NCBI GenBank assembly: GCA_028532855.1
Contig: JAQQAL010000049.1
Span: 1 to 56,498 of the forward strand
Reading direction: 5' to 3'
From: Candidatus Thalassospirochaeta sargassi
GTDB lineage: Bacteria; Spirochaetota; Spirochaetia; UBA9216
Length of the DNA stretch: 56,498 bases
The notes beneath the pieces are model-generated. The model was given only the letters and a program-made list of their open reading frames with translations, was not told the origin of the DNA and did not search any database. The position numbers were made by a program, and so were the translations under genes. This document shows positions 14,914-41,713 of this stretch, one piece after another. Each line of letters begins with the position of its first letter. The stretch's first letter is position 1.

Positions 14914-14946
14914 TCTGTGATACAATAGATCAGACCATAAAATGTG

Positions 14947-14987: not shown

Positions 14988-15006
14988 ATAAGGATTGAGT
15001 GTAGTT

Positions 15007-17659: not shown

Positions 17660-17669
17660 GCGGACGATA

Positions 17670-18809: not shown

Positions 18810-18812
18810 ATT

Positions 18813-20729: not shown

Positions 20730-20962
20730 TGAAAATTAGCATATCGTTTTATGGCAATTTAATAATACATCGCACTGAAGCAAATGAGCTGAAACGGCAA
20801 ATACAAATACCCGGGGGAATGACAGTCTCCGGGCTTCTTGTCAGCTATGGAATATCTGAAAAAACTGTGAAAGCGGTATGTAACGGAAAAAAGGTAGACG
20901 TCCGCCACATTTTGATGGAAGATGATTACCTTCAGTTTTACAGTCTTAACAGTGGGGGCTGA
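20729..20962 (+). CDS. MoaD/ThiS-like small sulfur carrier protein
   Basis: A 77-residue beta-grasp protein ending in Gly-Gly (LNSGG), the hallmark of MoaD/ThiS sulfur carriers whose C-terminus is thiocarboxylated. The ATG overlaps the AOR stop by one base (TGATG), so the two are tightly coupled. MoaD-like proteins next to AOR genes are common and are thought to support pterin cofactor synthesis or assembly for that enzyme (established gene context, exact role unproven). It ends the operon and is convergent with the second iclR gene. Confidence 0.85.
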   Translation: MKISISFYGNLIIHRTEANELKRQIQIPGGMTVSGLLVSYGISEKTVKAVCNGKKVDVRHILMEDDYLQFYSLNSGG

Positions 20963-20971
20963 GGTTAAAAT

Positions 20972-21748: not shown

Positions 21749-21768
21749 TTCAACTCCTGTAGTCTTTA

Positions 21769-21787
21769 AATGTATATTATATACATT
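21769..21787. promoter_or_regulatory. perfect palindromic operator upstream of the second iclR gene
   Basis: AATGTATAT-T-ATATACATT is a perfect nine-base inverted repeat around a central T, directly before the iclR start. A degenerate copy (TATATTATACATTA) lies at 21836-21849, between the iclR and YgiN-like genes. A likely -10 for iclR overlaps the palindrome, consistent with self-repression. Confidence 0.65.
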
Positions 21788-21845
21788 AATGCGTATTTTG
21801 TCTCTTAAAAAATAGTAAAAAACGAAAAATGATCTATATTATACA

Positions 21846-22121
21846 TTAAACAGGGTCGTGTAATGTGATTTCAGATTCTTCAATAAACTCAGAGACCCCT
21901 GAGTTAACATAATGTGGGGCAGCCTGATGGGCCTTGATAGCCTCCATATCTTTCCATTTTTCAACCATATGGAAGAGGCTGCTGTCTTCATGGTTTCTGT
22001 AGAGGATGTATTCAATACAGCCTTTTTCAGCGTTGCTGCCTGCAATAAGTGGTTTGGTTTTTTCAATGAAGGCTTCAGCCAATCCTGCTTTAACTTTAAG
22101 TTTTGCAATAATAAGAACCAT
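21846..22121 (-). CDS. YgiN/ABM family protein (quinol monooxygenase-like)
   Basis: A 91-residue single-domain dimeric alpha+beta barrel protein of the antibiotic biosynthesis monooxygenase family. Landmarks are the N-terminal strand VLIIAKLKVKAGL, GCIEYILYRN, FHMVEKWKDMEAIKAHQ and a C-terminal acidic segment. The family includes quinol monooxygenase YgiN and the isomerase LsrG, so either a redox or an isomerase role is possible. It precedes the second iclR gene on the same strand with a 97-bp gap containing an operator, so it may belong to the sugar regulon (inference). Confidence 0.75.
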   Translation of the reverse strand: MVLIIAKLKVKAGLAEAFIEKTKPLIAGSNAEKGCIEYILYRNHEDSSLFHMVEKWKDMEAIKAHQAAPHYVNSGVSEFIEESEITLHDPV

Positions 22122-22185
22122 ACTTTTCTCCTGTAGAATGATTTTACTATTCTACAGGAAAAATGTTAGAGATAGAAGCCTTAGC

Positions 22186-22932
22186 CTAAATGCTGTAATC
22201 AGGATCCGTGATTGGGGCAGATTCCCTGTTATATTTCAGAATCTTTTCGTAGTACTCATCATCAACATAAGTCGGAATATATTCCATATTGTACTTTGCA
22301 AGCTGGGATGAAAATGATCTCATGTGATTTCTCGAACCCTTCATAAGATTCTGATAGAGAATCTTTATCTCATCGTTTTCTGCATCTGAAATAAGATTCT
22401 GCAGGTCTGCAATGTCCAGGTCCTCAATCGTCGCGCCAACCTGAAGTGCCGCTTCTACTGATTCTTCACCTGCAGATGTGAGGTTGTCATAATGCTCCTG
22501 AATAATCGCACTATCGTATGCTCCCGGTGTCCCGATTTCTGAGGGCAGGCTTACATTGTATGCTTTCAGCATCAATTCAACAGCCTCCATATGCTGTTGT
22601 TCACTCTCTGCAATGTTTTTGAATATAGGTACATTCCAGGTCTCATAAAGATTCAGATAAACATCTCTTGCAAGTTTTTCTTCCTCCACCATCAGCAGAA
22701 GGCCTTCTTTTTCATCTGCATTCAATATACCGGAGCCGGGCTCAATGCCGTAAACTTCGGAGAGTTCTTCTATAAAATTTTCTTTATACTCTCCTCCGGC
22801 TCCCCGGCCCTGACCTTTACCCTGGCCGCTTCCGCTGCCGTATTTTTTTGCTGATTCCTTGATTCCGTTTGCTGAAAGTCCGGCTGCAAATACAACCAAA
22901 AGTGTTAATACAATAATCATAATCTTTTTCAT
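22186..22932 (-). CDS. secreted DUF2202 ferritin-like protein
   Basis: A 248-residue protein with an N-terminal signal peptide (MKKIMIIVLTLLVVFAAG), a low-complexity Gly/Lys/Gln linker (GSGSGQGKGQGRGAGGE), and a DUF2202 domain. The domain shows the diagnostic EEEKLARDVYLNLYETW and NIAESEQQHMEAVELML helices, with Glu and ExxH residues as in ferritin-like diiron folds, and a later GSRNHMRSF helix. Function in the family is not established; an exported metal-binding or oxidative-stress role is inferred. It is divergent from the NapH-like gene, and the shared region carries repeat arrays facing both genes. Confidence 0.85.
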   Translation of the reverse strand: MKKIMIIVLTLLVVFAAGLSANGIKESAKKYGSGSGQGKGQGRGAGGEYKENFIEELSEVYGIEPGSGILNADEKEGLLLMVEEEKLARDVYLNLYETWNVPIFKNIAESEQQHMEAVELMLKAYNVSLPSEIGTPGAYDSAIIQEHYDNLTSAGEESVEAALQVGATIEDLDIADLQNLISDAENDEIKILYQNLMKGSRNHMRSFSSQLAKYNMEYIPTYVDDEYYEKILKYNRESAPITDPDYSI

Positions 22933-22977
22933 GACTGTCTCCTTGTCGTGTTTGATGTTTCTAATGTAGTTTCCGAT

Positions 22978-23060
22978 TGTGAAGAAATGGTGAAGCAGTT
23001 TTGAAGAGATTGAAAAGAAATCAAAAAGATATAAATCTACATCTTCACCTAATCTTCACA
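22978..23060. promoter_or_regulatory. divergent operator arrays, GTGAAG and CTTCAC with 11-bp spacing
   Basis: Three GTGAAG/TTGAAG hexamers begin at 22979, 22990 and 23001, exactly 11 bp apart. On the other side ATCTTCAC begins at 23041 and again at 23052, also 11 bp apart and in inverted orientation. Direct repeats with 11-bp spacing are typical sites for OmpR/PhoB-type response regulators. The arrays lie between the DUF2202 gene and the NapH-like gene, whose operon encodes such a regulator (24713), so autoregulation is likely. Confidence 0.65.
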
Positions 23061-23136
23061 TTTGCTCCATAAAGTTTTTGCATTGGCTGGATAGTTTGAG
23101 TACAATGAAAACAAAGAAAAGTGCAGGAGGCAACAT

Positions 23137-24702
23137 GTGAAGAAGAAAAAAACTAGAATTCGTCTATTTATTCAGATTTTATTTCTTGTTTTAATCGCCC
23201 TTATTGCATTCAACCATACTCTGGAAGAATTGGGTCAGGCAATCCCGCTGCTCAGCAGCGCATCGCTTCATGCAGTATGTCCGTTCGGCGGAGTTGTATC
23301 TATTTATCAGTATGCAACCGGGGGCACTTTCGTAAAGAAAACGCATGAGTCTTCTTTTATATTGATGATAATAGTTGCGGCCCTGGCTGTTTTTATGGGG
23401 CCAGTCTTCTGCGGATGGATTTGTCCTTTCGGAACCGTGCAGGAGTTTTTCGGAAAAATCGGCAAAAAGCTCTTTAAAAAGAAATTCAACCGCTTTATTC
23501 CTTATAAATTTGATCGGTGGCTGCGTTTCCTGCGATACATCGTACTTGTCTGGGTCATATATATGACTGCGGTTACCGGTAAGATTATCTTTGCCGATTA
23601 TGATCCCTACTTTGCTCTGTTCAACTTCTGGACCGGTGAGGTTGCAATATCAGGTCTTGTGATTCTGTTCATTAGTCTTCTGCTCTCTATATTTGTAGAG
23701 CGTCCATTCTGCAAATATGCTTGTCCCTACGGTGCTGTTTTAGGCATATCCAATTTCTTTAGAATTTTTAAGATTAAAAGGACTGAATCAAGCTGTATAA
23801 ATTGCGGCGCATGTGATAAAGCCTGTCCAATGAACATTCAAGTTTCCAGATCTGCAACGGTGCGCAATCATCAGTGTATCAGCTGTATGAAATGTACGAG
23901 CGAACAGGTTTGTCCGGTTGCTGATACTGTTGACCTTCGAGTTGGCGCAAATCCCGGAAATAAAACAATCGGCTCAAAGTTGATTGCACCGATTGTTCTT
24001 GCCGTCTTTATTGTCGGAATTGGATTATCGATGATTTTTAATATTTGGGTGACCGAATCAAGCAAGACTCCGGCGGTATATTCAAGCGGAGAGTTTGAGG
24101 GGATCGCAAATCCCGCGGATATTCGCGGCTCATATTTTTTCTCCGATATATCAAAGGCTTTTGATATAGATGTAGAGATCCTCGCACAAGCCTTCGGTGT
24201 CGATGATCCGGATCCTTCAGGTTTTCAGGTTAAAGAATTTGAGGAGATCCTCCTTCCTCTGGACGATGGGGCTGAGGTCGGCACCGACTCAGTGCGCCTC
24301 TTCGTTGCACGCTATCTCGGGCTTCCGTATACTCCGGAGGAGACTACTCGTCTTCCGTTCCCGGCTATAAATCTCCTGAAAGATAAATTGACTCCCGCTG
24401 ATATTGAGTCTCTGCAGGAAATTTCCATCAGATTAAGTGATGTTAAACCTGAATATACCGATGAAGCCGGGGAATCAAATACTCTAGTCGAAGAATACGA
24501 TGAAGAGGAAACTGTTATCAAGGGAAAAACTACATTTGATGATCTCTTGAAATGGGGACTCGCTATCGAAGAGATTGAGTCTGTTCTCGGTATTGAGCTT
24601 GGAGCACGCGGTACATCTGTCAGGGATTATCTGATGGAGAATGAGCTTGAATTCTCTGTGTATAAAGAGAAGCTTCAGGTATTGGTAGACGCAAGGCAAT
24701 AG
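23137..24702 (+). CDS. NapH/NosR-like polyferredoxin membrane protein with C-terminal extracytoplasmic domain
   Basis: A 521-residue membrane iron-sulfur protein. An N-terminal signal/anchor helix is followed by about five helices bearing the paired CGWICPFG and CKYACPYG motifs of NapH/NosR/CcoG-like proteins. Two ferredoxin clusters come next (CINCGACDKACP and CISCMKCTSEQVCP), then a last membrane helix (~280-300) and a ~220-residue C-terminal region. That region contains a repeated helical module (FDIDVEILAQAFGV and GLAIEEIESVLGIEL, each followed by a short partner helix). It probably moves electrons across the membrane to an exported partner; the partner is unknown. GTG start with AGGAGG at 23125-23130. 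Followed by a two-component system. Confidence 0.85.
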   Translation: MKKKKTRIRLFIQILFLVLIALIAFNHTLEELGQAIPLLSSASLHAVCPFGGVVSIYQYATGGTFVKKTHESSFILMIIVAALAVFMGPVFCGWICPFGTVQEFFGKIGKKLFKKKFNRFIPYKFDRWLRFLRYIVLVWVIYMTAVTGKIIFADYDPYFALFNFWTGEVAISGLVILFISLLLSIFVERPFCKYACPYGAVLGISNFFRIFKIKRTESSCINCGACDKACPMNIQVSRSATVRNHQCISCMKCTSEQVCPVADTVDLRVGANPGNKTIGSKLIAPIVLAVFIVGIGLSMIFNIWVTESSKTPAVYSSGEFEGIANPADIRGSYFFSDISKAFDIDVEILAQAFGVDDPDPSGFQVKEFEEILLPLDDGAEVGTDSVRLFVARYLGLPYTPEETTRLPFPAINLLKDKLTPADIESLQEISIRLSDVKPEYTDEAGESNTLVEEYDEEETVIKGKTTFDDLLKWGLAIEEIESVLGIELGARGTSVRDYLMENELEFSVYKEKLQVLVDARQ

Positions 24703-24712
24703 GGAAGACGGT

Positions 24713-25423
24713 TTGAAAATTTACATCGTCGAAGACAATGAAAATGTCCGAGAGGCAGCTGCAGGTTATCTTAAACTTGAAGGATTTGAAATAGAAGAAT
24801 TTGCTGCGTTGAAACCAGTGCGCAGGACTCTTTTGTCCGGCGAAGAGCTGCCGGATCTTATTGTGCTTGATGTGATGCTACCTGACGGCGATGGGTTTCT
24901 TTTTGCCAAACAGCTTAAAGAGGAGTCGATGGAAATCCCTTCATCATCGATTCCAATTATTTTTCTTACGGCAAGGGATCAGGAATCGGACCGAATTACC
25001 GGGCTGGAACTTGGTGCAGACGACTACATAATAAAACCGTTCTCAACACGAGAACTGGTTCTCAGGGTAAAGGCGGTTCTCAGGCGCAGCTCGGCTGTAG
25101 ACAATAATGCAACTCTTGATATCAGCTACGGTATTGGTGCGAACAGGCTTGAAATCTCCGAGTTAAACCATCAGATATTGTATAACGGTGAAGCTTTGCA
25201 GTTAACTGCCGCCGAATGGAGTATTCTGCTGTTTCTTTCGGCTAAATCACCACAGGTTTTCAGCAGGCTTCAGATTCTTGAGAATTGTCTTGATTCATTT
25301 GCGGAGGGCTCGGAGAGAACCGTTGATACGCATATTAAAAACATCCGGCATAAGCTTTTGGGTGCTGACTGGATCGAAACAGTCAGGGGGTTCGGATATC
25401 GATTTAACGGGCAGGCTATATGA
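24713..25423 (+). CDS. OmpR family response regulator (first system)
   Basis: A 236-residue regulator with a receiver domain (residues 1-122) and a winged-helix DNA-binding domain. The phospho-acceptor is Asp53 in VLDVMLPDGDG, with the acidic pocket in VEDNE and Lys in IIKPFS. The output domain has LTAAEWSILLFL and the recognition region RTVDTHIKNIRHKL ending ETVRGFGYRF. The TTG start at 24713 follows AGGGAAGACGG. It overlaps the kinase gene by ATGA. It is paralogous to the regulator at 29949, but the candidate operators near the two genes differ. Confidence 0.92.
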   Translation: MKIYIVEDNENVREAAAGYLKLEGFEIEEFAALKPVRRTLLSGEELPDLIVLDVMLPDGDGFLFAKQLKEESMEIPSSSIPIIFLTARDQESDRITGLELGADDYIIKPFSTRELVLRVKAVLRRSSAVDNNATLDISYGIGANRLEISELNHQILYNGEALQLTAAEWSILLFLSAKSPQVFSRLQILENCLDSFAEGSERTVDTHIKNIRHKLLGADWIETVRGFGYRFNGQAI

Positions 25424-26676
25424 TCAGGCTTTTTCCCTGGTTACTAAGGCGATTCATCTTTGCCTTTGCAATTCTCGTTGCAGTTCAGTTAATTCTCTAC
25501 TTTTCCGGATTGAATCTGATTCTCTCGGGTTATGAGGATGATATGCTCGAGAGGTATGAGTCAGCTGCAGTTAAGGTTCTTACAGGGAATGAATCCGGTG
25601 TTGAACTGGAGCTTCCCGGAACCGGCTCATTCTTTGTTTTCACTGAGGATAGAACCCTTGTTTTTACAAATAAGGGCAAGGGACGGTCAATATCAGAAAG
25701 TGATCTGCGCCCGGTATATTTAAATGATAGTATTGTCGGCTATTTTCATGCTGGAGAGCTCGGCTTCACTGATAATCAGGCCAACCGTGTTTTTCTTTCT
25801 TCTATTATTATACTTGGAGTTTTTTCAGCCGTTTTATCTATTGTAATTGGTTTGATTGCAGCCCTGTACAGTTCAAGAAAAATAGCCGGGCCTATCAGCC
25901 TCCTACGCAGCGATATACATGATATACGCTCAATGAAGGTTGTCGATTCGAGAGAATTCGCAATAAGCGAACTTCGTGTAATGTCGCAGGATGTTTCCAA
26001 TGCTTCAAAGACACTGTCAAGTCAGGAGGAATATAAGAGACAGTGGCTGCGTGATCTTGCTCATGACCTACGCACCCCGCTCAGCGGACTTAAATCCCAG
26101 CTTGAAGCAATGGCTGACGGGGTTCTTGAGCCTACGGCTGAACGATTCCGGCGCCACCTGCTTGAAATCGAAAGGCTTGAAAATTTAGCCTCATCAATAG
26201 GTGAACTTACCTCGGTAGAATCGAAAGAGAATATAGAGAAAACTGAAATTGACGCCCGCAGCTTTGCAGAACGCCTGGTCTCGCCGTTTGAACAGGAAGC
26301 TGTAGACAAAGGTATCAGAATTGAAACCCGGATTGATGAAGGTAGAATTTTTGTTGATGAACAGTTGCTGCTCAGAGCCCTGGGTAATATTCTGTCCAAT
26401 GCCGTGAAATATATAGATGACGGGGACTGCATCAGGCTTGATTTAGCAATCAACCCAGGATTTCTGCATATTGAGATAACAAACAACGGACCAAATATTC
26501 CTGAAAAGCAGCAGGAACTTATCTTTACACGTCTTTACCGCGGAGAATCCGGGCGTACAAGCCCGGGCAGCGGATTGGGTCTATCAATTACCCGAGAAAT
26601 TATTAAACTTCACGGTGGAGCGATTCATATCAATAATCTTACCCCCCGCGGTGTCTGTTTTGTTATAAATATATAG
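25420..26676 (+). CDS. sensor histidine kinase (first system)
   Basis: A 418-residue kinase with two membrane helices (~10-32 and ~125-148) enclosing a short ~90-residue sensor region. The phospho-acceptor His is in DLAHDLRTPLSGLK. The ATPase domain shows the N-box LGNILSNAVKY, a G1-like NNGPNIP, the F-box region IFTRLYRGES and the G2-box GSGLGLSI. It starts inside the regulator stop codon (ATGA). The small periplasmic domain and the upstream Fe-S and DUF2202 genes suggest that it senses a redox or metal signal (inference). Confidence 0.92.
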   Translation: MIRLFPWLLRRFIFAFAILVAVQLILYFSGLNLILSGYEDDMLERYESAAVKVLTGNESGVELELPGTGSFFVFTEDRTLVFTNKGKGRSISESDLRPVYLNDSIVGYFHAGELGFTDNQANRVFLSSIIILGVFSAVLSIVIGLIAALYSSRKIAGPISLLRSDIHDIRSMKVVDSREFAISELRVMSQDVSNASKTLSSQEEYKRQWLRDLAHDLRTPLSGLKSQLEAMADGVLEPTAERFRRHLLEIERLENLASSIGELTSVESKENIEKTEIDARSFAERLVSPFEQEAVDKGIRIETRIDEGRIFVDEQLLLRALGNILSNAVKYIDDGDCIRLDLAINPGFLHIEITNNGPNIPEKQQELIFTRLYRGESGRTSPGSGLGLSITREIIKLHGGAIHINNLTPRGVCFVINI

Positions 26677-26863: not shown

Positions 26864-28345
26864 GTGGAGCAGTCTAATTTTTTAAATGACAGCACAAATG
26901 AATCCCGTCTCTTACTTGAGCTTTATGGAAAGATCATCGATGGTGAGTTGACGACTTTTGAATCGCTTAAAAAGGCAGTTTCCAGATACAAGGTGACTAA
27001 TGATCTTCGCAGATGCCTATTCCGGGCCTTTGAACTGCAGCGAAAGTTGTATTGGGGCTTTTTCCGTGATTTAACTCCCAAGGCTTATCCTCTTCTGTGG
27101 CAGGAAATAGTTATAGTTGATAGTCAGTTCCGTTTCGGGGGGGACCTGAAAAGGCTCATGTCCATTCCCGATATCTACCTCGGGCTGCTTGATATCCACG
27201 GTTACACAAGGTACTGCAACGATAAAAAGCGTAATATGTCGATGATTGATCTTCTTGATCGAATGATCTATGAAGATGTGGATGCTATTTGTGCGGAAAA
27301 CGGGGTTATAAGCAAGAGGGCTCAGGGGGATGAAATTCTTGTCCTTGGAGCCTCAGCGGCGAATGTACTTAAATCCGTACTGCAGATAATGAATTACTTC
27401 AATACCCAGGGGCGCTCGTTTCGAAACACCGTATTAAGCAGAAAGCTTCCGGGGACTGTATTGCCGAAGTTCCAGATCTCAGCCGGTATTGCCGGCGGTC
27501 AGAAGTTTACCCCGCTTGTTATAACCCGGGATGGTGATATCTCCGGTGACATTGTAAATACTGCCGCGCGTCTGCAGGCCAAGGCAAATAAAATCAGCCC
27601 TGACAAAAACAGGATAATGATTACAAGCCATGTATATCAAAAGCTGAGAGCTGCAGAAGCTGAGAAGCCTGATGAAGAGTTTGCATCGATAGATTATTTC
27701 AATATGGGAACGATTGAGTTCAAGGGTGTCAGCCAGAATGTTTATGATATTGTTTTCCTGCCGGAAGAAAAAGACAGACTCAACCTGCGGGAGCAGATGG
27801 AGGTTCTGTATACAAGCCTGGAGAAACGACGATGGAAAACGAAGATTTTCAAAGACGCTCTTGATACGACAACGAAGCTTCTATCCAATCAGCTTTCAAA
27901 AGGCTGTAAAGATACAGCGGCCGGAAGAAGGCTCGAGAACAGTTATAGGGAAACCCTGGAGCTGCTGAAAAAGACCTATACACTTTTTAACAGCATGTAT
28001 TATGAGGCGGCTATCAGTTCATTCTCACGTATAATCGACAGCCTTTCAGGGCTTGGGAATCTGGACAGGATTGTGATTGAATACCTTGAACTTGTTAAAC
28101 GAAACTACCTCGTTCTGAATGACCGATATTCCGGGGTTCTGGATGAGGAGGTTGTCGTCCGTCTGAATGAGGTGTGCAGTCCTCAGGAAAAAGAGAATTA
28201 TCTGCTGCTTAAAAAGCACAGAGCAATGTATGACAAGCTCCGTTCATCCACCAGGTTGAAACTCAAGAGCCGCAAAACGACCTGGCATAGAATTACTGAT
28301 GAGATTGGCGAAGAGCTCAACATCAACCTTCAATCGTTCAAATAA
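26864..28345 (+). CDS. class III adenylate/guanylate cyclase-like protein
   Basis: A 493-residue soluble protein with a central class III nucleotide cyclase domain (residues ~103-300). Metal-binding Asp110 lies in GLLDIHGYTRY and Asp156 in RAQGDEILVLG. The transition-state Asn/Arg pair is in GDISGDIVNTAARLQ, and EFKGVSQNVYDIVF closes the fold. The N-terminal ~100 and C-terminal ~190 residues are helical, with no membrane segment, and I do not recognise them as named domains. GTG 26864 is the likely start. The key residues look intact, so cAMP or cGMP synthesis is plausible. The gene lies between two two-component systems and converges on the second kinase gene with an 8-bp overlap. Confidence 0.8.
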   Translation: MEQSNFLNDSTNESRLLLELYGKIIDGELTTFESLKKAVSRYKVTNDLRRCLFRAFELQRKLYWGFFRDLTPKAYPLLWQEIVIVDSQFRFGGDLKRLMSIPDIYLGLLDIHGYTRYCNDKKRNMSMIDLLDRMIYEDVDAICAENGVISKRAQGDEILVLGASAANVLKSVLQIMNYFNTQGRSFRNTVLSRKLPGTVLPKFQISAGIAGGQKFTPLVITRDGDISGDIVNTAARLQAKANKISPDKNRIMITSHVYQKLRAAEAEKPDEEFASIDYFNMGTIEFKGVSQNVYDIVFLPEEKDRLNLREQMEVLYTSLEKRRWKTKIFKDALDTTTKLLSNQLSKGCKDTAAGRRLENSYRETLELLKKTYTLFNSMYYEAAISSFSRIIDSLSGLGNLDRIVIEYLELVKRNYLVLNDRYSGVLDEEVVVRLNEVCSPQEKENYLLLKKHRAMYDKLRSSTRLKLKSRKTTWHRITDEIGEELNINLQSFK

Positions 28346-29795
28346 CATTGATATTCTTCGCAGTCTCTGAATAGGTTAGAGGCAGCTCAACCGTGAACCG
28401 GACCAAACCCTGTTGCGTATTTTGTGCCGACAGATGTCCATCATTCTTTTCAACAATAGTCTTTGATATTGCAAGTCCCAGCCCGTTACCGGTGTACCCT
28501 GATTTCTTGCTGCGGTAGAGTCGGTCGAAGATAAGCGGAAGATCCGCTTCATCAATCCTTCCCTCATTTTCAAAATCAATGATGAATATTTCCCTCTGGT
28601 CAATCATTCGGTAAGATGTTCGCAGTGAGATTGTGATACTGCTGTTTTCAGGCGCATTATTAAGAGCGTTTGCAGTAAGGTTGTTTAAAACCCGCATTAA
28701 GCCCAGTTTGTCTGTTTCAACGGAAAGAGGCTCGCTGATTTTATTAAAGAAGAGCTTCTGGCCCTTTTTTTCAGCCTGGAGAACGAATCTTTCCGTTGTT
28801 TCTGCTATCAGCTTTTTCAAATCAAAGACTTCAATGTCAGGTATATAGTCTTCCGAGCTAAACTTTGTATACTTAGAAAGCTCCGCTATTATTTCTTCAA
28901 TTCTGCCGAATTCAGATGATAAGAGTGTAATGCGTTCATCGTCTACCTGCAGCACACCGTCACGAACAGCCTCAAACTGAATACCGAGGGCTGCAACCGG
29001 GGTTTTCAGGTCATGTACAATGTCCTGCAGCTTGCGAAGCTGTGCCTGTTCGTTATGTTTCAGCTGCCGCTGCAGATCTTCAGCCGCTGCAGCAGTAGAA
29101 CGTATTTCCTCTGTCTGGCCATATTTGAAATTGATATCACGTGACCCGGCGGCAAGCTGTGAAAGCTGTTTTGCAAGGACTCTGGAATTTTTACTGAGAG
29201 ATTTTGATATGAAGATTGAAACGATAAATGAAATTATTGTAGCGGAAATTACGCCTACCAAAAAGAATATGGAAATTATCTGATCAAAAAAAGTCGCGTA
29301 TTTTATCCCCATTAAAGGAAATGATTTAATCCTAATCGATCCTAGAAGTTTGCCGTCGGTTCCGGTGATTTCATTATTTTGCTCCGTTCTGTCACCTTTT
29401 ATAAAATGACTTATTTCTGAAGTCCACCGTAGCAATTGGAAATGAAATATCGTATTATCGGGCTGATCCATTGAATCAACAATATCTATGTCATAGATAG
29501 ACTCACCGGTATTAGAGAATAAAGTTACGTTGCGCAGCCTTCCCCTATGACTTTCGAGAGCTTTATCGGATATTTCTTTAAGTTGGTAATCGCTCAATTC
29601 AGCCAAGTTTTCTAATTCTGGATATGTGTGGTTGAGCTCTCGATTAATTGCGGCTGCTATATCAATCGATAATCCTCCTTCCCAGCTGAGAGTCATTTGG
29701 AATATACCAATAACCAGGCTGGCGCTCATAAGTATTATGACTAGAATATTTACCGATATAAGGGAAACTGCAATGCTTGCTCTGATACTCTTCAT
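28338..29795 (-). CDS. sensor histidine kinase (second system)
   Basis: A 485-residue kinase with membrane helices at ~8-35 and ~170-195 enclosing a ~130-residue extracytoplasmic sensor. A HAMP-like linker follows, then the phospho-acceptor region DIVHDLKTPVAALG. The ATPase domain carries VLNNLTANALNNAPE (N-box), FENEGRI (G1-like) and GNGLGLAIS (G2). ATG 29795 (MKSIRASIAV) is preferred to an ATG at 29876 because it gives a normal signal-anchor start. It is divergent from its probable partner regulator at 29949, across a region with four 11-bp-spaced repeats. Confidence 0.9.
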   Translation of the reverse strand: MKSIRASIAVSLISVNILVIILMSASLVIGIFQMTLSWEGGLSIDIAAAINRELNHTYPELENLAELSDYQLKEISDKALESHRGRLRNVTLFSNTGESIYDIDIVDSMDQPDNTIFHFQLLRWTSEISHFIKGDRTEQNNEITGTDGKLLGSIRIKSFPLMGIKYATFFDQIISIFFLVGVISATIISFIVSIFISKSLSKNSRVLAKQLSQLAAGSRDINFKYGQTEEIRSTAAAAEDLQRQLKHNEQAQLRKLQDIVHDLKTPVAALGIQFEAVRDGVLQVDDERITLLSSEFGRIEEIIAELSKYTKFSSEDYIPDIEVFDLKKLIAETTERFVLQAEKKGQKLFFNKISEPLSVETDKLGLMRVLNNLTANALNNAPENSSITISLRTSYRMIDQREIFIIDFENEGRIDEADLPLIFDRLYRSKKSGYTGNGLGLAISKTIVEKNDGHLSAQNTQQGLVRFTVELPLTYSETAKNINVI

Positions 29796-29859
29796 GCTTA
29801 TCAATACTACCCGCAGAATAGATAAGATCAATAAACAATAGTACCAGACTGCTTCAGTT

Positions 29860-29898
29860 TTACATAGTTTACACATAGATTACACATACTTAACACAT
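29860..29898. promoter_or_regulatory. four 11-bp-spaced ACACAT repeats in the kinase/regulator intergenic region
   Basis: TTACAT, ACACAT, ACACAT and ACACAT begin at 29860, 29871, 29882 and 29893, exactly 11 bp apart. This direct-repeat geometry is typical of OmpR/PhoB-type regulators. Similar repeats precede the genes at 30765, 31975 and 33130, so the site is a candidate for binding by the regulator encoded at 29949 and for its autoregulation. Confidence 0.65.
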
Positions 29899-29948
29899 TA
29901 AAATCCGAAGTTAAATATAATCAATTATCTTTTATGGAAGGTGTGAAC

Positions 29949-30647
29949 ATGCAGACAGTAGCAATAGTTGAAGATAACAAGGCAATAAGGGAGGCTGTAA
30001 CAGCCTACCTTAAACTCGATGATTTCAATGTTGTCGGGTTTGAATCCTGCAGCGGTGTTGTCGATTATATGAGAAATAACACTGTCGATTTGACGCTTAT
30101 GGACATCACTCTACCGGACGGCGACGGTTTTCTGCTGGTAAAGGAGATAAGAGGCTTCTCTGATATGCCAATAATTTTTCTGACATCAAGGGCGGAAGAA
30201 TCCGACCGCATCCTTGGTTTTGAACTTGGGGGAGACGACTATGTTCAAAAGCCGTTTTCTCATAAGGAGCTTATTCTCAGGATAAAGGCTGTGCTGAGGC
30301 GAAGAGGCGGGGGGGCTCTTGAAGAATCCGCAGATGACTTTCAGTGCTGGCAGTCGGGCGACAGCATAATTCAGCTTGATATACCAGGGCATAAATTCAT
30401 GCTTGACGGTGAATCTGTTAAATTCACTTCAACGGAGTGGAAAATAATAACTTATCTGATATCAAATGCCCATGTAGTTTTATCTCGTGAACAGATCCTT
30501 GACCATTCACTTGAATACAGTTTTGAAGGATACGACAGGATAGTCGATACCCATATAAAAAACATCAGAGCCAAGCTTGGAAATGAGGAATGGATTGAAA
30601 CTGTCCGGGGATACGGGTACAGCTTTAGCGGCAGTAGCTGCAGCTGA
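29949..30647 (+). CDS. OmpR family response regulator (second system)
   Basis: A 232-residue receiver plus winged-helix regulator. Asp52 in LMDITLPDGDG is the acceptor, with VEDNK forming the acidic pocket and Lys in VQKPFS. The DNA-binding domain has FTSTEWKIITYL and RIVDTHIKNIRAKL, ending ETVRGYGYSF. ATG 29949 is preferred over 29934 because GGAAGGTG is then correctly spaced. It is clearly paralogous to the first regulator (shared LPDGDGFL, ESDRI, VDTHIKNIR). The CACA-type repeats around its own promoter and the next genes define its probable regulon. Confidence 0.92.
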   Translation: MQTVAIVEDNKAIREAVTAYLKLDDFNVVGFESCSGVVDYMRNNTVDLTLMDITLPDGDGFLLVKEIRGFSDMPIIFLTSRAEESDRILGFELGGDDYVQKPFSHKELILRIKAVLRRRGGGALEESADDFQCWQSGDSIIQLDIPGHKFMLDGESVKFTSTEWKIITYLISNAHVVLSREQILDHSLEYSFEGYDRIVDTHIKNIRAKLGNEEWIETVRGYGYSFSGSSCS

Positions 30648-30683
30648 GCAGCACTGATAATCTCCATTAAAAAAACAAGTACA

Positions 30684-30736
30684 CCACACAAAATTCACAT
30701 ATACTCCACACATAGCGGGACCATCCTTTTTATAAA
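30684..30736 (+). promoter_or_regulatory. response-regulator box and promoter of the porin-like gene
   Basis: CCACACA, TCACATA and CCACACA begin at 30684, 30695 and 30706, 11 bp apart. A -10 TATAAA at 30731-30736 follows, so the last repeat occupies the -35 position. This matches activation by an OmpR/PhoB-type regulator lacking a proper -35. Confidence 0.6.
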
Positions 30737-30764
30737 TTAATTTTACTTAAGGAGAAAATTAGGT

Positions 30765-31775
30765 ATGAAAAAATCTTTGATTGTACTTGCAGTGCTGCTG
30801 CTTGTCGGAGGATTTGTTTTTGCAGAGGCTGGCGTAAGCGGAGAATTTACACTAGGCGCATCCGATGTTTTTACTACTGATGCATCAACTTCCGTAATTA
30901 ATGCTGAGATTAACATCACTGCGGATGTTGACGAGTATACCTCTGTTGCAGTTGAGCTTGATTCAGAAGGTGATGACTGGACTGACCAGAATGTCGCGCT
31001 GGATGACTTTAGATTGTCGTCAAACATTCTTGGTGCGCTGGGCGTTGAAGAAGTAAGTCTCGATTTGACTGTAGGCCTTTTCACTTCATATTTCAGTAAC
31101 TGGAACTATGTTTCAAGAAGCGGTGAAGAATTTTACTATTCAACTGCTTCCGGTGTGATTTTCACATCTGCCGAGACCACTGATCTGGCTTTTTCTCTTG
31201 ATCTTGGATACAAGGGTTATGACGTAATGTATTGGATGGATATGTATGCTTCTGAAATGGCAGCGGCAATTTCCGGTACACCTGTTGAAGGGGCAAACTT
31301 TCTTGTTGGTTACGCCGCATCAATTGCGGATATGACTGCAGGTGGAATCTGGGTTGAAGGTGGCTATGAATTTGAGGCAGGGCCTGCAAGTCTCTTGATT
31401 CCGGCCTCTTTTGTTTATGATCTCGCCAGTGAGTCATACGGATGGAGTTCAGGTATTGCAGTTGATGTTGATGCTTATCATTTTTCAACAGCCGTCGGCG
31501 GCAGTACAGATAAATCAGCATTTGCCGATTGTCTTATTGAGTTGAGCACCTCAGTTGTTGAGAATGCGGATATTTATGTTATTGCAGATATGGATTTCTC
31601 TGCTGACTCAGCATTCCAGTCAGTTGACCTCGGCGGTATGTATAACTTTGGCGCATTTGGTCTTGGTGCAGGATATGTGCTTGCTTCAGCGGACGATGTT
31701 GAAACAATCATCCTAAGCGATTCTTCCTCCATGAACGGCAGCGGTATTTACCTCTGTGCAGATGTGGATTTCTAA
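30765..31775 (+). CDS. outer membrane beta-barrel (porin-like) protein
   Basis: A 336-residue exported protein with a signal peptide (MKKSLIVLAVLLLVGGFVFA) followed by alternating polar and nonpolar strands rich in Gly, Ser, Asp and Tyr. It ends in Phe (CADVDF), the C-terminal signal expected for BAM-inserted barrels. No named family was recognised, but the pattern is common among spirochaete surface proteins. GGAG lies before ATG 30765. Promoter repeats put it under the adjacent two-component system, and a strong terminator follows. Confidence 0.75.
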   Translation: MKKSLIVLAVLLLVGGFVFAEAGVSGEFTLGASDVFTTDASTSVINAEINITADVDEYTSVAVELDSEGDDWTDQNVALDDFRLSSNILGALGVEEVSLDLTVGLFTSYFSNWNYVSRSGEEFYYSTASGVIFTSAETTDLAFSLDLGYKGYDVMYWMDMYASEMAAAISGTPVEGANFLVGYAASIADMTAGGIWVEGGYEFEAGPASLLIPASFVYDLASESYGWSSGIAVDVDAYHFSTAVGGSTDKSAFADCLIELSTSVVENADIYVIADMDFSADSAFQSVDLGGMYNFGAFGLGAGYVLASADDVETIILSDSSSMNGSGIYLCADVDF

Positions 31776-31814
31776 GTAACCTCTCCATTGCGTTTTTACG
31801 GATGGATTTTAGGG

Positions 31815-31843
31815 CGGAAACTCCGGTTTCCGTCTTTTTTTTT
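31815..31843 (+). terminator. intrinsic terminator after the porin-like gene
   Basis: CGGAAAC (31815-31821) pairs with GTTTCCG (31826-31832) around a TCCG loop, and a run of nine Ts follows at 31835-31843. It lies about 40 bp after the stop codon. Confidence 0.9.
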
Positions 31844-31849
31844 GCTCTT

Positions 31850-31946
31850 TCACACCCGAACCACACAGTCCTTCATAAAACCCCGACAATACTCCGCCCA
31901 ATTTACATTTTTGTTTCATTTTTACTACACAGACAAGCTTTAGATT
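31850..31946 (+). promoter_or_regulatory. two response-regulator repeat groups and promoter of the secreted-protein gene
   Basis: A distal group TCACACC, CCACACA, TTCATAA begins at 31850, 31861 and 31872. A proximal group TTACATT, TTTCATT, CTACACA begins at 31903, 31914 and 31925. Both have exact 11-bp spacing. A -10-like TAGATT at 31941-31946 lies just after the proximal group, so the repeats again stand in for a -35. Confidence 0.5.
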
Positions 31947-31974
31947 ATGTTCATAAACATTAAGGAGTTTCGAA

Positions 31975-32811
31975 ATGAGAAACAAGAGAAGTCTTATATT
32001 ATTGGCAACCTGCCTTATAACAATTGTCGGCGCACTACCAATCTTCGCAATGGGCAGCAGCGAAGGCATCAATGGAGAAAACGCCCTGTGGTACCAGGCT
32101 GAAGAGATTGTTGAAAACAGCGCCTCTGTGCTGCCTGCAGAGAAAACCCTTGTATGGTCCGAACTAAGCCCATCAGGCGATGTTATCAGTGAAGATTCGG
32201 TAACCTTTTTTTACAGCGAGGCTGAAGAGGAAGTCCTGATTTCCGAGCTTGGTGAAAAAGGCAAATATGTAGACGGCTATGAGATTCAGGTTGATATTGC
32301 CGGCGACTATGATACATTTGTAAAACGAAGCCTTGTAAACGACGGCCTTCTTTGGACCCCCTTTGACGATGATGTTGATGCTGAGGACGTAACTGTAGCA
32401 AACACTGGCAGGGTAGAGCTTGTAAACGGTACCGAATGTTCAGTATTCGACTACACCCTGTACAGAGATGCTGCACAGTACGGTTACGACTTCGAAGAGA
32501 CTGTAAGGGATAGCAGAGACCTTATTGCAGACTACGAAGATCCTGAAAGCAATTCAACAATAGTTGTAAAAGGGCTTGCCTGGATTGACGGAAATGGGGT
32601 TCTTCGCCAGCTTGTATCAAATGTAGATTATGATGGAGTGACATACACTGAAACTATTAAATATGAGTTTGATGGAAGCACACTGTACCCTACTGCCTCT
32701 ACCATCGAAGGTGTTATTGATAGGACTGTAGACGACATTATAATTGAATCTAACTTCAGAGCCGAGGAAACAATGTTCGGCTATTGGACTGCGACAGATT
32801 TCTACAGATAA
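31975..32811 (+). CDS. secreted protein of unknown function
   Basis: A 278-residue protein with a signal peptide ending IFAMGSSEG, the common spirochaete processing region. The mature part is acidic and rich in beta strands, with paired-strand segments such as EKTLVWSELSPSGDVISE and KGLAWIDGNGVLRQLV. It resembles in outline the lipid-carrying LolA/LolB-like or outer-membrane lipoprotein-sorting fold, but I cannot assign it. ATG 31975 has AAGGAG upstream. Its promoter carries the same 11-bp repeats as its neighbours, suggesting an envelope role under the second two-component system. Confidence 0.6.
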   Translation: MRNKRSLILLATCLITIVGALPIFAMGSSEGINGENALWYQAEEIVENSASVLPAEKTLVWSELSPSGDVISEDSVTFFYSEAEEEVLISELGEKGKYVDGYEIQVDIAGDYDTFVKRSLVNDGLLWTPFDDDVDAEDVTVANTGRVELVNGTECSVFDYTLYRDAAQYGYDFEETVRDSRDLIADYEDPESNSTIVVKGLAWIDGNGVLRQLVSNVDYDGVTYTETIKYEFDGSTLYPTASTIEGVIDRTVDDIIIESNFRAEETMFGYWTATDFYR

Positions 32812-32840
32812 TTCGAAGGTAGAGTATGTATAAAAAAAAG

Positions 32841-32889
32841 AGGCCGGTTTGTTAGAGAGGGGTATTCCTGAATCACAACCGGCCTTTTT
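32841..32889 (+). terminator. intrinsic terminator after the secreted-protein gene
   Basis: AGGCCGGTT (32841-32849) pairs perfectly with AACCGGCCT (32877-32885), followed by T residues to 32889. The upstream A-run could pair with the T-run and make it bidirectional. The loop is 27 nt. Confidence 0.88.
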
Positions 32890-32921
32890 GGGATTTAATA
32901 ATCACCCAAACTACAGATAAA

Positions 32922-32981
32922 CGACAATTATTCCACATATAATCCACACATTTGAAAACTAATCTATTCATACTTCATATT
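32922..32981 (+). promoter_or_regulatory. response-regulator box and promoter of the diguanylate cyclase unit
   Basis: CGACAAT, CCACATA and CCACACA begin at 32922, 32933 and 32944, 11 bp apart. TTGAAA at 32952-32957 follows directly, with CATATT at 32976-32981 as a weak -10. The repeats abut the -35, as in class II activation. Confidence 0.5.
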
Positions 32982-32989
32982 AATTCGGT

Positions 32990-33067
32990 CCGGTTTCCTA
33001 ACAACAAAACCGGGCAGTTTCCTCCCGGAAGGCAGTTTTAGACAAGTTCTGCTTTTCGGGATTTTTT
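32990..33067 (+). promoter_or_regulatory. attenuator-like leader (or small RNA) before the diguanylate cyclase gene
   Basis: Three mutually exclusive hairpins can be drawn. The first is CCGGTTT (32990-32996) with AAACCGG (33007-33013). An alternative pairs CCGGG (33010-33014) with CCCGG (33024-33028). The terminator pairs CCCGGAAGGCAG (33024-33035) with CTGCTTTTCGGG (33049-33060), two G-U pairs, then six Ts at 33062-33067. The alternative hairpin would break both others. The terminator lies 63 bp before the start codon, downstream of a separate promoter. It may control read-through into the gene or end a ~85-nt small RNA. Confidence 0.6.
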
Positions 33068-33129
33068 ATACTTTTTTATACCACCACAGGCGCTTATATA
33101 GTAAAATAATTACAGGTGGATATTTTAAG

Positions 33130-34230
33130 TTGAAAAAAATAATCAATTTTATATGGAATAATGGAATATCCGACGATATATCTATCTATGATATCAGTAA
33201 AACCAGGCTTTTGAATTTATCAGTATTACTTTGCCTGATTTTTTTGGGGCCCCTGGCGGTAAAAAGCTATATGTCCGAGGCCTATGTTTTTGTTGTTATT
33301 GATCTCATGGTTTTATTCCTTTTTATTTTCAGCTTTATCTATATTCGAATAACATCAAATTATCGGCCGGCTTCTCATATAATGATTCATTCGTTATTTT
33401 TTCTGCTTTTGTTTCTGATTTATTCGGGGGGCATTGGAAAAACAGGATATCTATGGATGTTTATTTTTCCTATGGCCACGTTCTTTCTATATGATTTGAA
33501 GAGGGGGCTTGTTTATCTGGCCGTTTTTACCGCTGCAGCAGCATTTCTGGTTTTTGCACCAATCAGGTTGCATGGGGCGGTTGAGTATCCTGTTCTGTTC
33601 AGATCAAGATTGTTTGCGGCTTTCACCGTTGTGTCGGTATGTGCCGCACTTTATGAAACGGTGAGAGCGAAAAGCTATAAAAGTCTGAAGGAAGCAAGTA
33701 TAAAGCTTGAGAAAATGGCCAAACATGATGCCTTGACAGGATTACTGAACCGCTACGGTATCTCGGAGCGCTTCGACTATGAGTTCAGCAGGGCAAAACG
33801 AAATAAAACCTCATTAACTGTTATAATCTGTGACATAGATCTGTTTAAATCTGTGAACGACAGGTATGGACATGATGCGGGCGATGATGTGCTTATCAAC
33901 ATATCACAACTGTTTGAAGAATATAAACGTTCCCAGGATATTATAGCCCGTTGGGGAGGCGAGGAGTTTCTGCTTCTGCTTCCGGATACCGATCTTTCGG
34001 GCGGGCTGGTGCTTGCTGAAAAAATGCGCTCAAAAATAAGCGATATGATTGTTGTTTATGAAAAAAATGAGATAAAAGTAACCATGAGTTTCGGGGTGTC
34101 GGAGCTGGAAATGTCGGAATCGGCATCAATCGGTATCCGGAAAGCTGATCGTCAGTTGCTGAAAGCTAAAGAAAACGGTAAAGACAGGGTCTTTCCGGAA
34201 CCGATTGAAGGCTTCCTTAGAAATGCTTAG
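33130..34230 (+). CDS. membrane-bound GGDEF diguanylate cyclase
   Basis: A 366-residue protein with about six N-terminal membrane helices (residues ~25-185), a short coiled linker, and a complete GGDEF domain. The active site reads RWGGEEFLLLLPD and the Mg-binding Asp is in ICDIDLFKSVND. An inhibitory site RxxD (RSQD) lies five residues before GGEEF, so feedback inhibition by c-di-GMP is expected. It should make c-di-GMP in response to a membrane signal. The start is TTG 33130 with AGGTGG at 33114-33119. The upstream hairpin leader suggests extra control at the RNA level. Confidence 0.9.
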   Translation: MKKIINFIWNNGISDDISIYDISKTRLLNLSVLLCLIFLGPLAVKSYMSEAYVFVVIDLMVLFLFIFSFIYIRITSNYRPASHIMIHSLFFLLLFLIYSGGIGKTGYLWMFIFPMATFFLYDLKRGLVYLAVFTAAAAFLVFAPIRLHGAVEYPVLFRSRLFAAFTVVSVCAALYETVRAKSYKSLKEASIKLEKMAKHDALTGLLNRYGISERFDYEFSRAKRNKTSLTVIICDIDLFKSVNDRYGHDAGDDVLINISQLFEEYKRSQDIIARWGGEEFLLLLPDTDLSGGLVLAEKMRSKISDMIVVYEKNEIKVTMSFGVSELEMSESASIGIRKADRQLLKAKENGKDRVFPEPIEGFLRNA

Positions 34231-34855
34231 CTTCTGAGTTCAGATAAGAACTGAGCATTATTACAGCCTCATCAATTATGCGTTCTTTTTCTATTTCAGT
34301 GTCTTCATAAGTCAGGAAATGAGTCAGGTCCTCAATAATCCTGTGGACGATAATTGACGCTGCTTCGATATCTTCTGTACTGATAATATCAGATTTCGCT
34401 TTGAGAATGGACTTAGTCTGTTCGTATGATTTTTTTTCTGATTCTTCAAGCTGTTTTCTGATGTCGGGCTCAGTCTGTTTTAATGATTTCATGTCACGGT
34501 GAAAAACCGGCAGTAATCTGTGAACCTCAATATTGGATTCTATGATAGAGCGAATGAACTCCTTGATATCGACTTTTGTGCTGTCTGTAAATCGCTCCTC
34601 TGTTTCTACATTTGTCATATTCTCTTTAATCTTCTCATGACCTATGCGGATAGATTCCAGCAGTACACCCTTTTTGTCAGTGAAGTATGCATATACGCTG
34701 CCAACTGGGACGCCGGCTCGCTTTGCAATGAGTTTTGTTGTAGTCTTATAATATCCAAGTTCAGCAAAGAGTTCGTTGGCGGCCGAGATAATTTTGCCCT
34801 TTGTTTCAATGCTTCGGGCCTGATTGGGTTTTCTGATTGTTTTTTCAGGCTTCAT
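34217..34855 (-). CDS. TetR family transcriptional regulator
   Basis: A 212-residue regulator with a TetR N-terminal helix-turn-helix (SIETKGKIISAANELFAELG, then TTTKLIAKRAGVPVGSVYAYF). The C-terminal ligand domain has no recognised specificity. ATG 34855 is used because the HTH begins shortly afterwards; an upstream extension to 34975 would encode a hydrophobic segment unlike the family. It overlaps the end of the diguanylate cyclase gene by 14 bp and is divergent from the methyltransferase gene. Two similar palindromes lie in the intergenic region. Confidence 0.9.
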   Translation of the reverse strand: MKPEKTIRKPNQARSIETKGKIISAANELFAELGYYKTTTKLIAKRAGVPVGSVYAYFTDKKGVLLESIRIGHEKIKENMTNVETEERFTDSTKVDIKEFIRSIIESNIEVHRLLPVFHRDMKSLKQTEPDIRKQLEESEKKSYEQTKSILKAKSDIISTEDIEAASIIVHRIIEDLTHFLTYEDTEIEKERIIDEAVIMLSSYLNSEAKHF

Positions 34856-34909
34856 CACACAAATTATAAATAAAAGATCCGTGTATAACAACAAGATTAA
34901 GCTAAAATG

Positions 34910-34974
34910 TGAATTAAAGTTCATAAACCCTTGACAATTACATCCTGGGGGTGTTATATGTGAACTATAGTTCA
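34910..34974. promoter_or_regulatory. promoter with two TetR-type operators
   Basis: TGAACTATAGTTCA at 34961-34974 is a perfect 14-bp palindrome. TGAATTAAAGTTCA at 34910-34923 is a close copy. Between them TTGACA (34931-34936) and TTATAT (34954-34959) form a rightward promoter with 17-bp spacing. One operator overlaps the start site of the methyltransferase gene and the other faces the regulator gene. Confidence 0.72.
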
Positions 34975-34988
34975 TATTTGGGGGTCCT

Positions 34989-35492
34989 ATGGCACATCAC
35001 GATCACGATAGAAATGATATTGGCAGGGAACATCCGGCGAACCATCCCGGACAGATAATCGGGGCACTGCTTTTCTTTGCTGTGCAGGTTGCAGACAATT
35101 TCTTTTTCAGGTTAACACTTATACCGATCCGGAATATGTATTTACAGATTCCGATTGCTGCTGTAATTATAATTATAGCTGTATACATGATTAGAACCGG
35201 TCTGACAACAGTATTCGAAGAGCGTCGCGATCCTCCGGAAGTAATCAGCAAGGGTGTGTTCAGCCGGGTAAGGCATCCGGTTTATTCAGGTGCAATGATG
35301 ATAATGCTCGGTATTCTTGTGACGGGACCTTCCGGTGCGGCTTTCGGGATTCTTGTTCTGAATTTCATCTTCTATAACTCGATGGCATCATATGAGGAAT
35401 CCCTCTTGATTAAGATGTTTGGCAATGAATATCTTGAATACATGGAAACGGCGGGTCGCTGGCTTCCGAAATTTCGGAAGCCAGCTGCCTGA
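34989..35492 (+). CDS. isoprenylcysteine/phospholipid methyltransferase-like membrane protein
   Basis: A 167-residue protein with four hydrophobic segments and the SAM-binding hallmark of the ICMT/PEMT family: RHPVYSGAM, then a C-terminal SYEESLLIKMFGNEYLEYM with the conserved Glu pair. Bacterial members methylate small lipid-like or isoprenoid substrates; the substrate here is unknown. The His/Asp-rich N-terminus (MAHHDHDRND) is unusual and might bind metal. It is controlled by a promoter with TetR-type operators. The last 30 bp contain a perfect 28-bp palindrome. Confidence 0.78.
   Translation: MAHHDHDRNDIGREHPANHPGQIIGALLFFAVQVADNFFFRLTLIPIRNMYLQIPIAAVIIIIAVYMIRTGLTTVFEERRDPPEVISKGVFSRVRHPVYSGAMMIMLGILVTGPSGAAFGILVLNFIFYNSMASYEESLLIKMFGNEYLEYMETAGRWLPKFRKPAA
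35458..35485. repeat. perfect 28-bp palindrome at the end of the methyltransferase gene
   Basis: The arms GCTGGCTTCCGAAA and TTTCGGAAGCCAGC meet with no spacer. The sequence encodes the last residues of the methyltransferase and lies between convergent genes. It can form a strong hairpin in either transcript, but no T-run follows, so it is more likely a transcript-end stabiliser or a protein-binding site than a classical terminator. Confidence 0.6.
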
Positions 35493-35504
35493 TTTAGGGG
35501 AAAA

Positions 35505-36278
35505 CTAATAGCTGACAGTTACCCTTCCGTCGCCGATATCAATGATTCTTACTGCAATCCCGTAGAGAGCGGAGAGCTTCTCTTCGGTGAAGAGCTTGCC
35601 GAAGCGTCCGTATTCAACGCTGCCGTCGGCATGCATCAGCACAAGGTAATCAGCAAGCCCGGCGGCGGATTCGGGGTCATGTGTTGTGAAGATGACAGTT
35701 TTTTGTTGATTTTTAAGTCTGAGGATTATATCAAGCATATGACGGCGTCTTGCAGGATCCAGATGATTAGCCGGCTCGTCAAGCAGCATTATTTCCGGCT
35801 CCTGTGTGAGAGAGCGGGCCATCAGGGTTGATTGCGTCTCGCCGCCGCTTAATAAGGGTATTCTGCGCGATTTCAGCTCAAGGGCATCAGCCTGTTTTAA
35901 TGCAGTGGAAGCAATATTATGATCGTTCTCGCCAGGTTGCTGTAACGGGTGAAGATGAGGTGCTCTGCCTAACAGTATATATTCCATTACAGTATAATCA
36001 AAACTGAGGTTTTCAGTCTGAGGCAGCAGGCTGATAAGCTGTCCCCTTGTACGGGGACTCAAGTCTGCAAGTTCCTGTCCGGCGGCAAATACGCGCCCGT
36101 GTTCGGGTTTATTCCAGCCCAGCATTATATGCAGCAGGGTTGTTTTTCCGCAGCCGTTGGGGCCCATAACAGCACATATGCTTCCGGCGGGGATAGTCAG
36201 CGACAGTCTGCTTATAATTTTTCTGCTGTTGTAGGAAAAGCTGATGTTCTCAAGTTCAAAGGCGTTTCTGCTCAGCAT
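35505..36278 (-). CDS. iron/cobalamin-type ABC transporter ATP-binding protein
   Basis: A 257-residue FecE/BtuD-type ATPase. Walker A is GPNGCGKTT, the Q-loop LPQTENLSF, the signature LSGGETQ, Walker B IMLLDEPANHLD and the switch His in FTTHD. It is the last gene of a binding protein-permease-ATPase operon on the minus strand and overlaps the permease by 7 bp. It powers uptake of a siderophore, heme or corrinoid. Confidence 0.92.
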   Translation of the reverse strand: MLSRNAFELENISFSYNSRKIISRLSLTIPAGSICAVMGPNGCGKTTLLHIMLGWNKPEHGRVFAAGQELADLSPRTRGQLISLLPQTENLSFDYTVMEYILLGRAPHLHPLQQPGENDHNIASTALKQADALELKSRRIPLLSGGETQSTLMARSLTQEPEIMLLDEPANHLDPARRRHMLDIILRLKNQQKTVIFTTHDPESAAGLADYLVLMHADGSVEYGRFGKLFTEEKLSALYGIAVRIIDIGDGRVTVSY

Positions 36279-41514: not shown

Positions 41515-41713
41515 TTTCTACCGGACTTTGCCATTGGAATGGAATCCTCCAGTATCTATATTTATTAAGAATTGCTCACAAGTTTACATACTTTACAAGA
41601 CCTTTACATTGCATTAACCAACGACTCCTCGTAAATCATTAAATTACACCCATAAGGACTAAAAATAGTCACTTAAGGAAAGAATTAAGTTATTTCTTAA
41701 ATAAGGGTGAAAA
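41515..41713 (+). promoter_or_regulatory. promoter region of the MacAB-TolC-like operon with TTACA repeats
   Basis: The 199-bp gap contains TTACATA (41584), TTACAAG (41593) and TTACATT (41604). The last two are 11 bp apart; the first is out of phase. They resemble the CACA-type boxes upstream of the genes at 30-33 kb but are weaker. A small GACTA/TAGTC hairpin lies near 41660. No consensus -35/-10 pair was convincing. Confidence 0.35.

Follow-up and report, generated by a model that had tools for sequence, protein, structure and literature searches.

Beside a two-component regulatory gene pair in Candidatus Thalassospirochaeta sargassi lie groups of short CACA-type direct repeats at a period of exactly 11 bp, and we propose that several of them are operators of the OmpR/PhoB-family response regulator encoded there, hereafter RR2. 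They fall within a stretch of 56,498 nucleotides (the window, contig C49, JAQQAL010000049.1) of a 3.84-Mb genome (G000, GCA_028532855.1); other C-numbers denote further contigs of this genome, G-numbers genomes of the same class, L-numbers loci, and f26, f3 and f4 families. We number the groups site 1 (before RR2), site 2 (before a porin-like gene), site 3 (before a gene for a secreted protein of unknown family, SEC; a weaker pair 3a and a main array 3b) and site 4 (ahead of a diguanylate cyclase gene). In what we regard as part of the best explanation, with a probability of roughly 0.78, sites 2, 3b and 4 and a further site on contig C35 are predicted tandem head-to-tail RR2 operators, each composed of a 7-bp half-site, CY[A/T]CAYA, and a 4-bp spacer in two to four copies.

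A sequence-only reading of this DNA had placed such repeats in front of four neighboring units, and we confirmed all of them as units of about 7 bp with an exact 11-bp period, all on the + strand (Table 1). In the window, pairs of CACA at a lag of 11 occur seven times on the + strand and never on the − strand; lags of 5–10 and 12 yield only 0–2 pairs each. Pattern searches over the 3.84 Mb, on which all genome-wide counts rest, returned only seven matches to CACAYW-N5-CACAYW, five of them in the sites of this 3-kb stretch and on the same strand, and matches to a three-copy pattern with zero or one mismatch are confined to the stretch. Checked against the rest of the genome, where it might have been equally frequent, the motif survived. 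With up to two mismatches the three-copy pattern showed no excess (20+12 matches versus 26+22 in the control), and several of its matches elsewhere in the genome are inside genes; the clearest further site gained at this level falls in the promoter of a SEC paralogue (C35:80296). Measured without any matrix, self-similarity at lag 11 was decisive at site 1, where 0 of 2000 shuffles were as good, and modest at site 4 (p 0.02) and site 2 (p 0.04).

The earlier assignment of all four groups to the regulon of the second OmpR-type regulator is well supported at sites 2 and 3, where footprinting across species and the paralogue promoter both speak for it, but not for site 1 as a simple member. We scanned a half-site matrix trained on G000 only over loci around RR2 homologues from other genomes; the 17 test loci are those with a porin-like or SEC gene near an RR2 homologue, each covering about 10 kb and roughly 13,000–26,000 positions. 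In 13 of the 17 the best site of the locus preceded the porin or SEC gene by at most 130 bp (CTTCACATTCTCTTCATATCATCAACATA in G031 and CTACACATAATCTACATAC in G034 are examples), and in a fourteenth, from G081, the site before this gene ranked second. In the reverse test, a matrix built from the other genomes only and run over the 56-kb window ranked at the top sites 1–4 and the promoter region of RR1, a paralogue of RR2. These matrix tests amount to phylogenetic footprinting, and the operator persists across genomes although regulator identity is only 48–57%. Within G000, the promoter of the SEC paralogue on C35 keeps TTACATTT-N4-TTCATT-N1-TTACT-N1-CACAGA, and TCACACCCGA, which resembles site 3a, also precedes this gene.

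We infer a mechanism in which an envelope signal would pass through the neighboring sensor kinase, HK2, to RR2, whose phosphorylated form would bind the two to four repeats cooperatively as a tandem dimer or oligomer, with one subunit per helical turn. Bound RR2 would overlap or replace the −35 element and activate the porin-like gene and both secreted-protein genes, and its binding at site 4 would give rise to a terminator-ended RNA of about 85 nt. The −35 overlap, for which the sequence-only reading had placed three of the repeat groups at or beside the −35 position, is clear at sites 1 and 2, with TATAAA at 30731 serving site 2 (CACACA-N18-TATAAA). Several observations weigh against assigning sites 2–4 to RR2. 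The −10 elements of sites 3 and 4 are weak, being ambiguous in position at site 3 and CATACT at 32969 at site 4 (CACACA-N18-CATACT), and site 3 taken alone is not significantly self-periodic at lag 11 (p 0.15). At L089, L224 and L229 the best site lies elsewhere than ahead of the porin or SEC gene, and the test loci, drawn from f26, f3 and f4, are not independent trials because f26 dominates and both f3 loci are near-duplicates. Finally, RR1 (24713–25423), which is 46% identical to RR2 and encoded 5 kb away, has a similar TTCAC-type box and may therefore also bind.

At site 1 a second motif is superimposed on the repeats. The site fits, with one mismatch, an efflux-type motif, TTTACATAG-TTTACACATAG-ATTACACATAC-TTAAC, to which RR2-like ACACATA repeats are added. 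Exact copies of the first repeats of site 1, TTTACATAGTTTACA, stand before the efflux operons of C8 (TolC-RND) and C15 (MFP-ABC, which has a divergent kinase and a regulator of its own). Searched with up to three mismatches allowed, TTTACA-N3-TTTACA-N5-TTTACA-N5-TTAAC has seven sites in G000, site 1 included and none exceeding two mismatches, against 0 in the control. In most of these sites a TAnnnT hexamer follows TTAACC at a distance of exactly 20 nt, and site 1 has TTAACA-N20-TATAAT. The sites other than site 1 precede TolC-like or efflux genes, two small-RNA-like elements and an operon of ferredoxin type, and in relatives the motif repeatedly stands before an MFP-ABC operon that has its own two-component system, divergent from the kinase gene. 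This efflux-type regulon probably answers to another two-component system, and the position of the C15 regulator suggests that it would bind the motif.

A matrix from sites 2–4 and the C35 site gives site 1 a score of 23.0 and the other efflux-type sites 6.4–15.6. As site 1 fits the efflux motif yet scores 23.0 with an RR2-type matrix, we read it as a composite predicted site for both regulators, through which the efflux-type system would probably set the level of RR2, possibly together with RR2 itself. Alternatively, all four sites could form one RR2 regulon with simple autoregulation, site 4 regulating the cyclase by read-through; the score of site 1, obtained with a matrix trained without it, and the place of the cyclase as the next annotated gene after site 4 are in keeping with this. 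We consider it unlikely, as site 1 matches the efflux-type motif with a single mismatch and TATAAT at the fixed N20, a terminator separates site 4 from the cyclase, and no cyclase was recognized in the neighborhood of the regulator at other loci with porins or SEC.

The terminator belongs to an element between site 4 and the cyclase, a candidate small RNA or leader with two hairpins that folds at −32.6 kcal/mol (z −4.86; 0 of 200 shuffles were as stable). Its hairpins and U run are built like an intrinsic terminator, which should stop transcripts from site 4 short of the cyclase. Nearer to the cyclase than site 4 stands a promoter-like TTTATA-16-TATAGT (33075–33102), and the cyclase is probably not read from site 4. 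With this strong hairpin terminator ahead of the gene, the link to cyclic di-GMP synthesis drawn in the sequence-only reading was not supported.

We take the element for a probable small RNA, at about even odds. An Rfam search of window positions 28000–36000 returned no match, and in 60 relatives we found short partial matches to the element and no full-length one. Predicted duplexes with the start regions of the porin-like gene, SEC, RR2, HK2 and the cyclase were not clearly better than those with shuffled targets, and one snoRNA match, in L260, was below the gathering score and outside the element, and we took it as chance. The element could instead be a leader with a conditionally opened terminator, so that site 4 would control the cyclase by attenuation; a promoter, hairpins and a terminator ahead of a regulatory gene are a riboswitch or attenuator layout too. 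That version is also improbable in our judgment: the ensemble showed no alternative antiterminator fold (the centroid equals the minimum-free-energy structure), the element lacks an Rfam match, and beyond the terminator there is another promoter-like sequence. Two further terminator-ended segments, on C12 and C15, stand directly after efflux-motif sites, are 75% identical to each other (E 6e-7) and have GGACAAGTGCTGAGAT in common; they were not found in 40 relatives and are candidate response-regulator-driven small RNAs, which would agree with site 4 also driving one.

The recognition helices bear on which of the two paralogues would bind sites 2–4. RR2 and the f26 regulators that adjoin such arrays have in common the recognition-helix region EYSFEGYDRxVDTHIKN, and that of RR1 reads EGSERTVDTHIKN. 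Across high-scoring arrays, an Ile in second place in the regulator's helix goes with TACA-type half-sites (4 loci in three families; 10 A, 2 C, 0 T) and a Thr there mostly with TTCA-type half-sites (20 loci; 48 T, 10 A, 2 C), counts in which at least one Thr-type array (L082) is probably a chance match. As the counts ignore phylogeny, a role for this residue in specificity is a lead and not proof. Aligned by eye, Val213 of Mycobacterium tuberculosis PhoP falls at the same position, and this residue contacts the 5’ part of TCACAGC (PMC4832192).

The TTCAC-type arrays in the interval that separates the RR1 operon from a DUF2202 gene are a predicted operator of the same kind, for RR1, and were not among the groups given in the sequence-only reading. 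In a further alternative RR1 would be the main binder of the sites, or both paralogues would bind and the sites form one shared regulon of two cross-talking systems. Consistent with this, the RR1 promoter region carries TTCAC arrays on both strands, which score at the top with the other-genome matrix, and the two recognition helices differ at few positions. We rate it somewhat below the alternatives for sites 1 and 4, since RR2 adjoins the sites, as its homologues adjoin such arrays elsewhere, and sites 2–4 are TACA-like, matching the RR2-type Ile, whereas the RR1-type Thr goes with mostly TTCA. A chance origin, in which CA-rich sequence merely happened to cluster here, draws something from site 3, which taken alone is not self-periodic above shuffles; we rejected it as having a negligible probability in view of their genome-wide rarity, the three-copy search, the one-strand bias and the 13 of 17 loci in other genomes.

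Other regulators and other repeats of this period occur in the genome. An 11-bp array, TTTTCACTTAATCTTCACACATTAGACACATC (C31:16866-16904, −; L061), lies about 100 bp upstream of a further OmpR-family regulator gene, and several such regulators may therefore each own a box variant. The TTATACACA repeats 11 bp apart in the intergenic DNA before a gyrB-like gene (C11:160696-160723, +; L049) are not this operator and are probably DnaA boxes near the replication origin. In other genomes, the RR2 homologues of G081 and G111 (L233:4786-5472 and L243:4997-5683) have Glu in place of the phospho-accepting Asp, and their acidic pocket is altered. Beside them no kinase gene was recognized, yet two arrays about 200 nt apart precede the adjacent exported-protein gene. 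These homologues are possibly naturally phosphomimetic orphan regulators, and the substitution with arrays retained is a hint that phosphorylation matters.

Table 1. Coordinates of the predicted sites, elements and genes (window positions unless a contig is given).
Feature	Position	Strand	Sequence or basis
TTCAC-type 11-bp arrays, interval between RR1 operon and DUF2202 gene	22985..23072	both	sequence, other-genome matrix
HK2, membrane sensor histidine kinase	28338..29795	-	Pfam HisKA (weak), HATPase_c
Site 1, predicted composite operator before RR2	29859..29899	+	TTACATA/ACACATA/ACACATA/ACACATT, 11-bp register
RR2 promoter −10, TATAAT	29916..29921	+	exactly 20 nt past TTAACA
RR2, OmpR/PhoB-family response regulator, proposed binder of sites 2–4	29949..30647	+	Pfam
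Site 2, three direct repeats before porin-like gene	30684..30716	+	CCACACA/TCACATA/CCACACA
Porin-like outer-membrane protein	30765..31775	+	likeness to G031 gene, signal-like start, C-terminal Phe
Site 3a, weaker upstream pair of CACA copies	31851..31865	+	sequence
Site 3b, three direct repeats before SEC	31903..31935	+	TTACATT/TTTCATT/CTACACA
SEC, secreted protein of unknown family	31975..32811	+	paralogue on C35 (64% identical)
Site 4, one weak and two good repeats	32922..32954	+	CGACAAT (weak), CCACATA/CCACACA
Candidate small RNA or attenuator leader	32984..33068	+	9-bp hairpin, 13-bp hairpin, then U run
MASE6-GGDEF diguanylate cyclase	33130..34230	+	Pfam
Further efflux-motif sites	window 41583-41618 (+); C8:124396; C15:42493; C15:32681; C29:29569; C12:9349		pattern search
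Paralogous terminator-ended segments without recognized gene	L280 = C12:9222-9318; L281 = C15:32560-32649	-	sequence

The HK2 and RR2 genes are divergent, and the porin-like, SEC and cyclase genes then follow on the + strand. The best NCBIfam match of HK2 is BaeS-like and below the cut-off. RR2 combines a receiver (PF00072 Response_reg, E 2.3e-25) with a winged-helix domain (PF00486 Trans_reg_C, E 3.7e-21) and keeps the phospho-acceptor Asp, its LMDITLPDGDG aligning with LLDVMLPDGDG of relatives. With the OmpR equivalog model NF007005, whose cut-off is 331 bits, it scored 131, and it was below the cut-off for every NCBIfam equivalog listed; its relatives among solved structures are PhoP, RegX3 and BaeR. 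A search of genome contigs for RR2 gave relatives at 32–41%, nearly all from other phyla, and this result was not used. The porin-like protein itself had no match in a Pfam search; its positional counterpart in G031, with 34% identity to it over 100 aa and about 23% between the two proteins, matches Porin_4 above the cut-off (E 1.8e-8). Distant SEC homologues adjoin RR2 homologues in G034, G054 and G361. Single-sequence AlphaFold models of the porin-like and SEC proteins had predicted local distance difference test (pLDDT) values of 32–34. Matches to PF04620 (FlaA flagellar-sheath) number three in G000 and zero in 14 control genomes, which marks G000 as most likely a spirochete genome.

Taken together, these predictions could describe a two-tier envelope circuit, which we put forward tentatively and at somewhat less than even odds. 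In it an efflux-type, WalR-like system would act through site 1 on a PhoP/OmpR-like system, which would in turn control the porin, two SEC paralogues and a small RNA, and the upper system would also drive the C12 and C15 small RNAs. If true, OmpR/MicF-like logic would have been assembled independently in spirochetes. To our knowledge such regulator and small-RNA circuits have been little studied in this phylum, and our searches of open-license papers turned up no mapped OmpR-family regulon of this kind in spirochetes. The sites offer a position matrix, a defined target list and, in the choice of Ile or Thr against TACA or TTCA, a candidate specificity residue, together with three candidate small RNAs that response regulators would control. 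Operators and systems of this kind are familiar; what is new lies in the details of the regulon, the possible specificity residue and the candidate small RNAs.

In Escherichia coli, the PhoB pho box and the OmpR porin promoters consist of 11-bp direct repeats that replace the −35 element, as predicted here, with a porin among the targets, and OmpR also targets the small RNA micF. Like E. coli OmpR, the proposed RR2 regulon has a porin target and a small RNA as a possible co-target. In contrast to PhoB and OmpR, the half-site is different and RR2 is an orthologue of neither by NCBIfam cut-offs, and the candidate small RNA is unrelated in sequence to micF. Among the closest relatives of RR2 with a solved structure is PhoP of M. 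tuberculosis, which binds as a tandem dimer to TCACAGC-N4 repeats with a strict 4-bp spacer, and its cooperative binding reaches trimers and tetramers on longer arrays (PMC4832192). The PhoP box and the operator predicted here both pair an OmpR/PhoB-family regulator with head-to-tail 7-bp half-sites, a 4-bp spacer, hence an 11-bp period, and a TCACA core, and the arrays of up to four copies tested with PhoP are comparable to the repeat numbers here. They differ in the half-site (TCACAGC versus CY[A/T]CAYA), and the sites here, in a Gram-negative spirochete, would overlap or replace the −35 elements of genes for a porin and secreted proteins. The box of WalR/YycF (VicR) is TGTWAH-N5-TGTWAH (PMC4168254). 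The efflux-type motif of site 1 fits the reverse complement of this consensus, DTWACA-N5-DTWACA. The CpxR and RpaB boxes, like that of WalR, are among the nearest known counterparts. Unlike the WalR box, the motif here is a four-part 9+11+11 array at a near-fixed N20 from the −10 element, and within the class it stands before an efflux operon.

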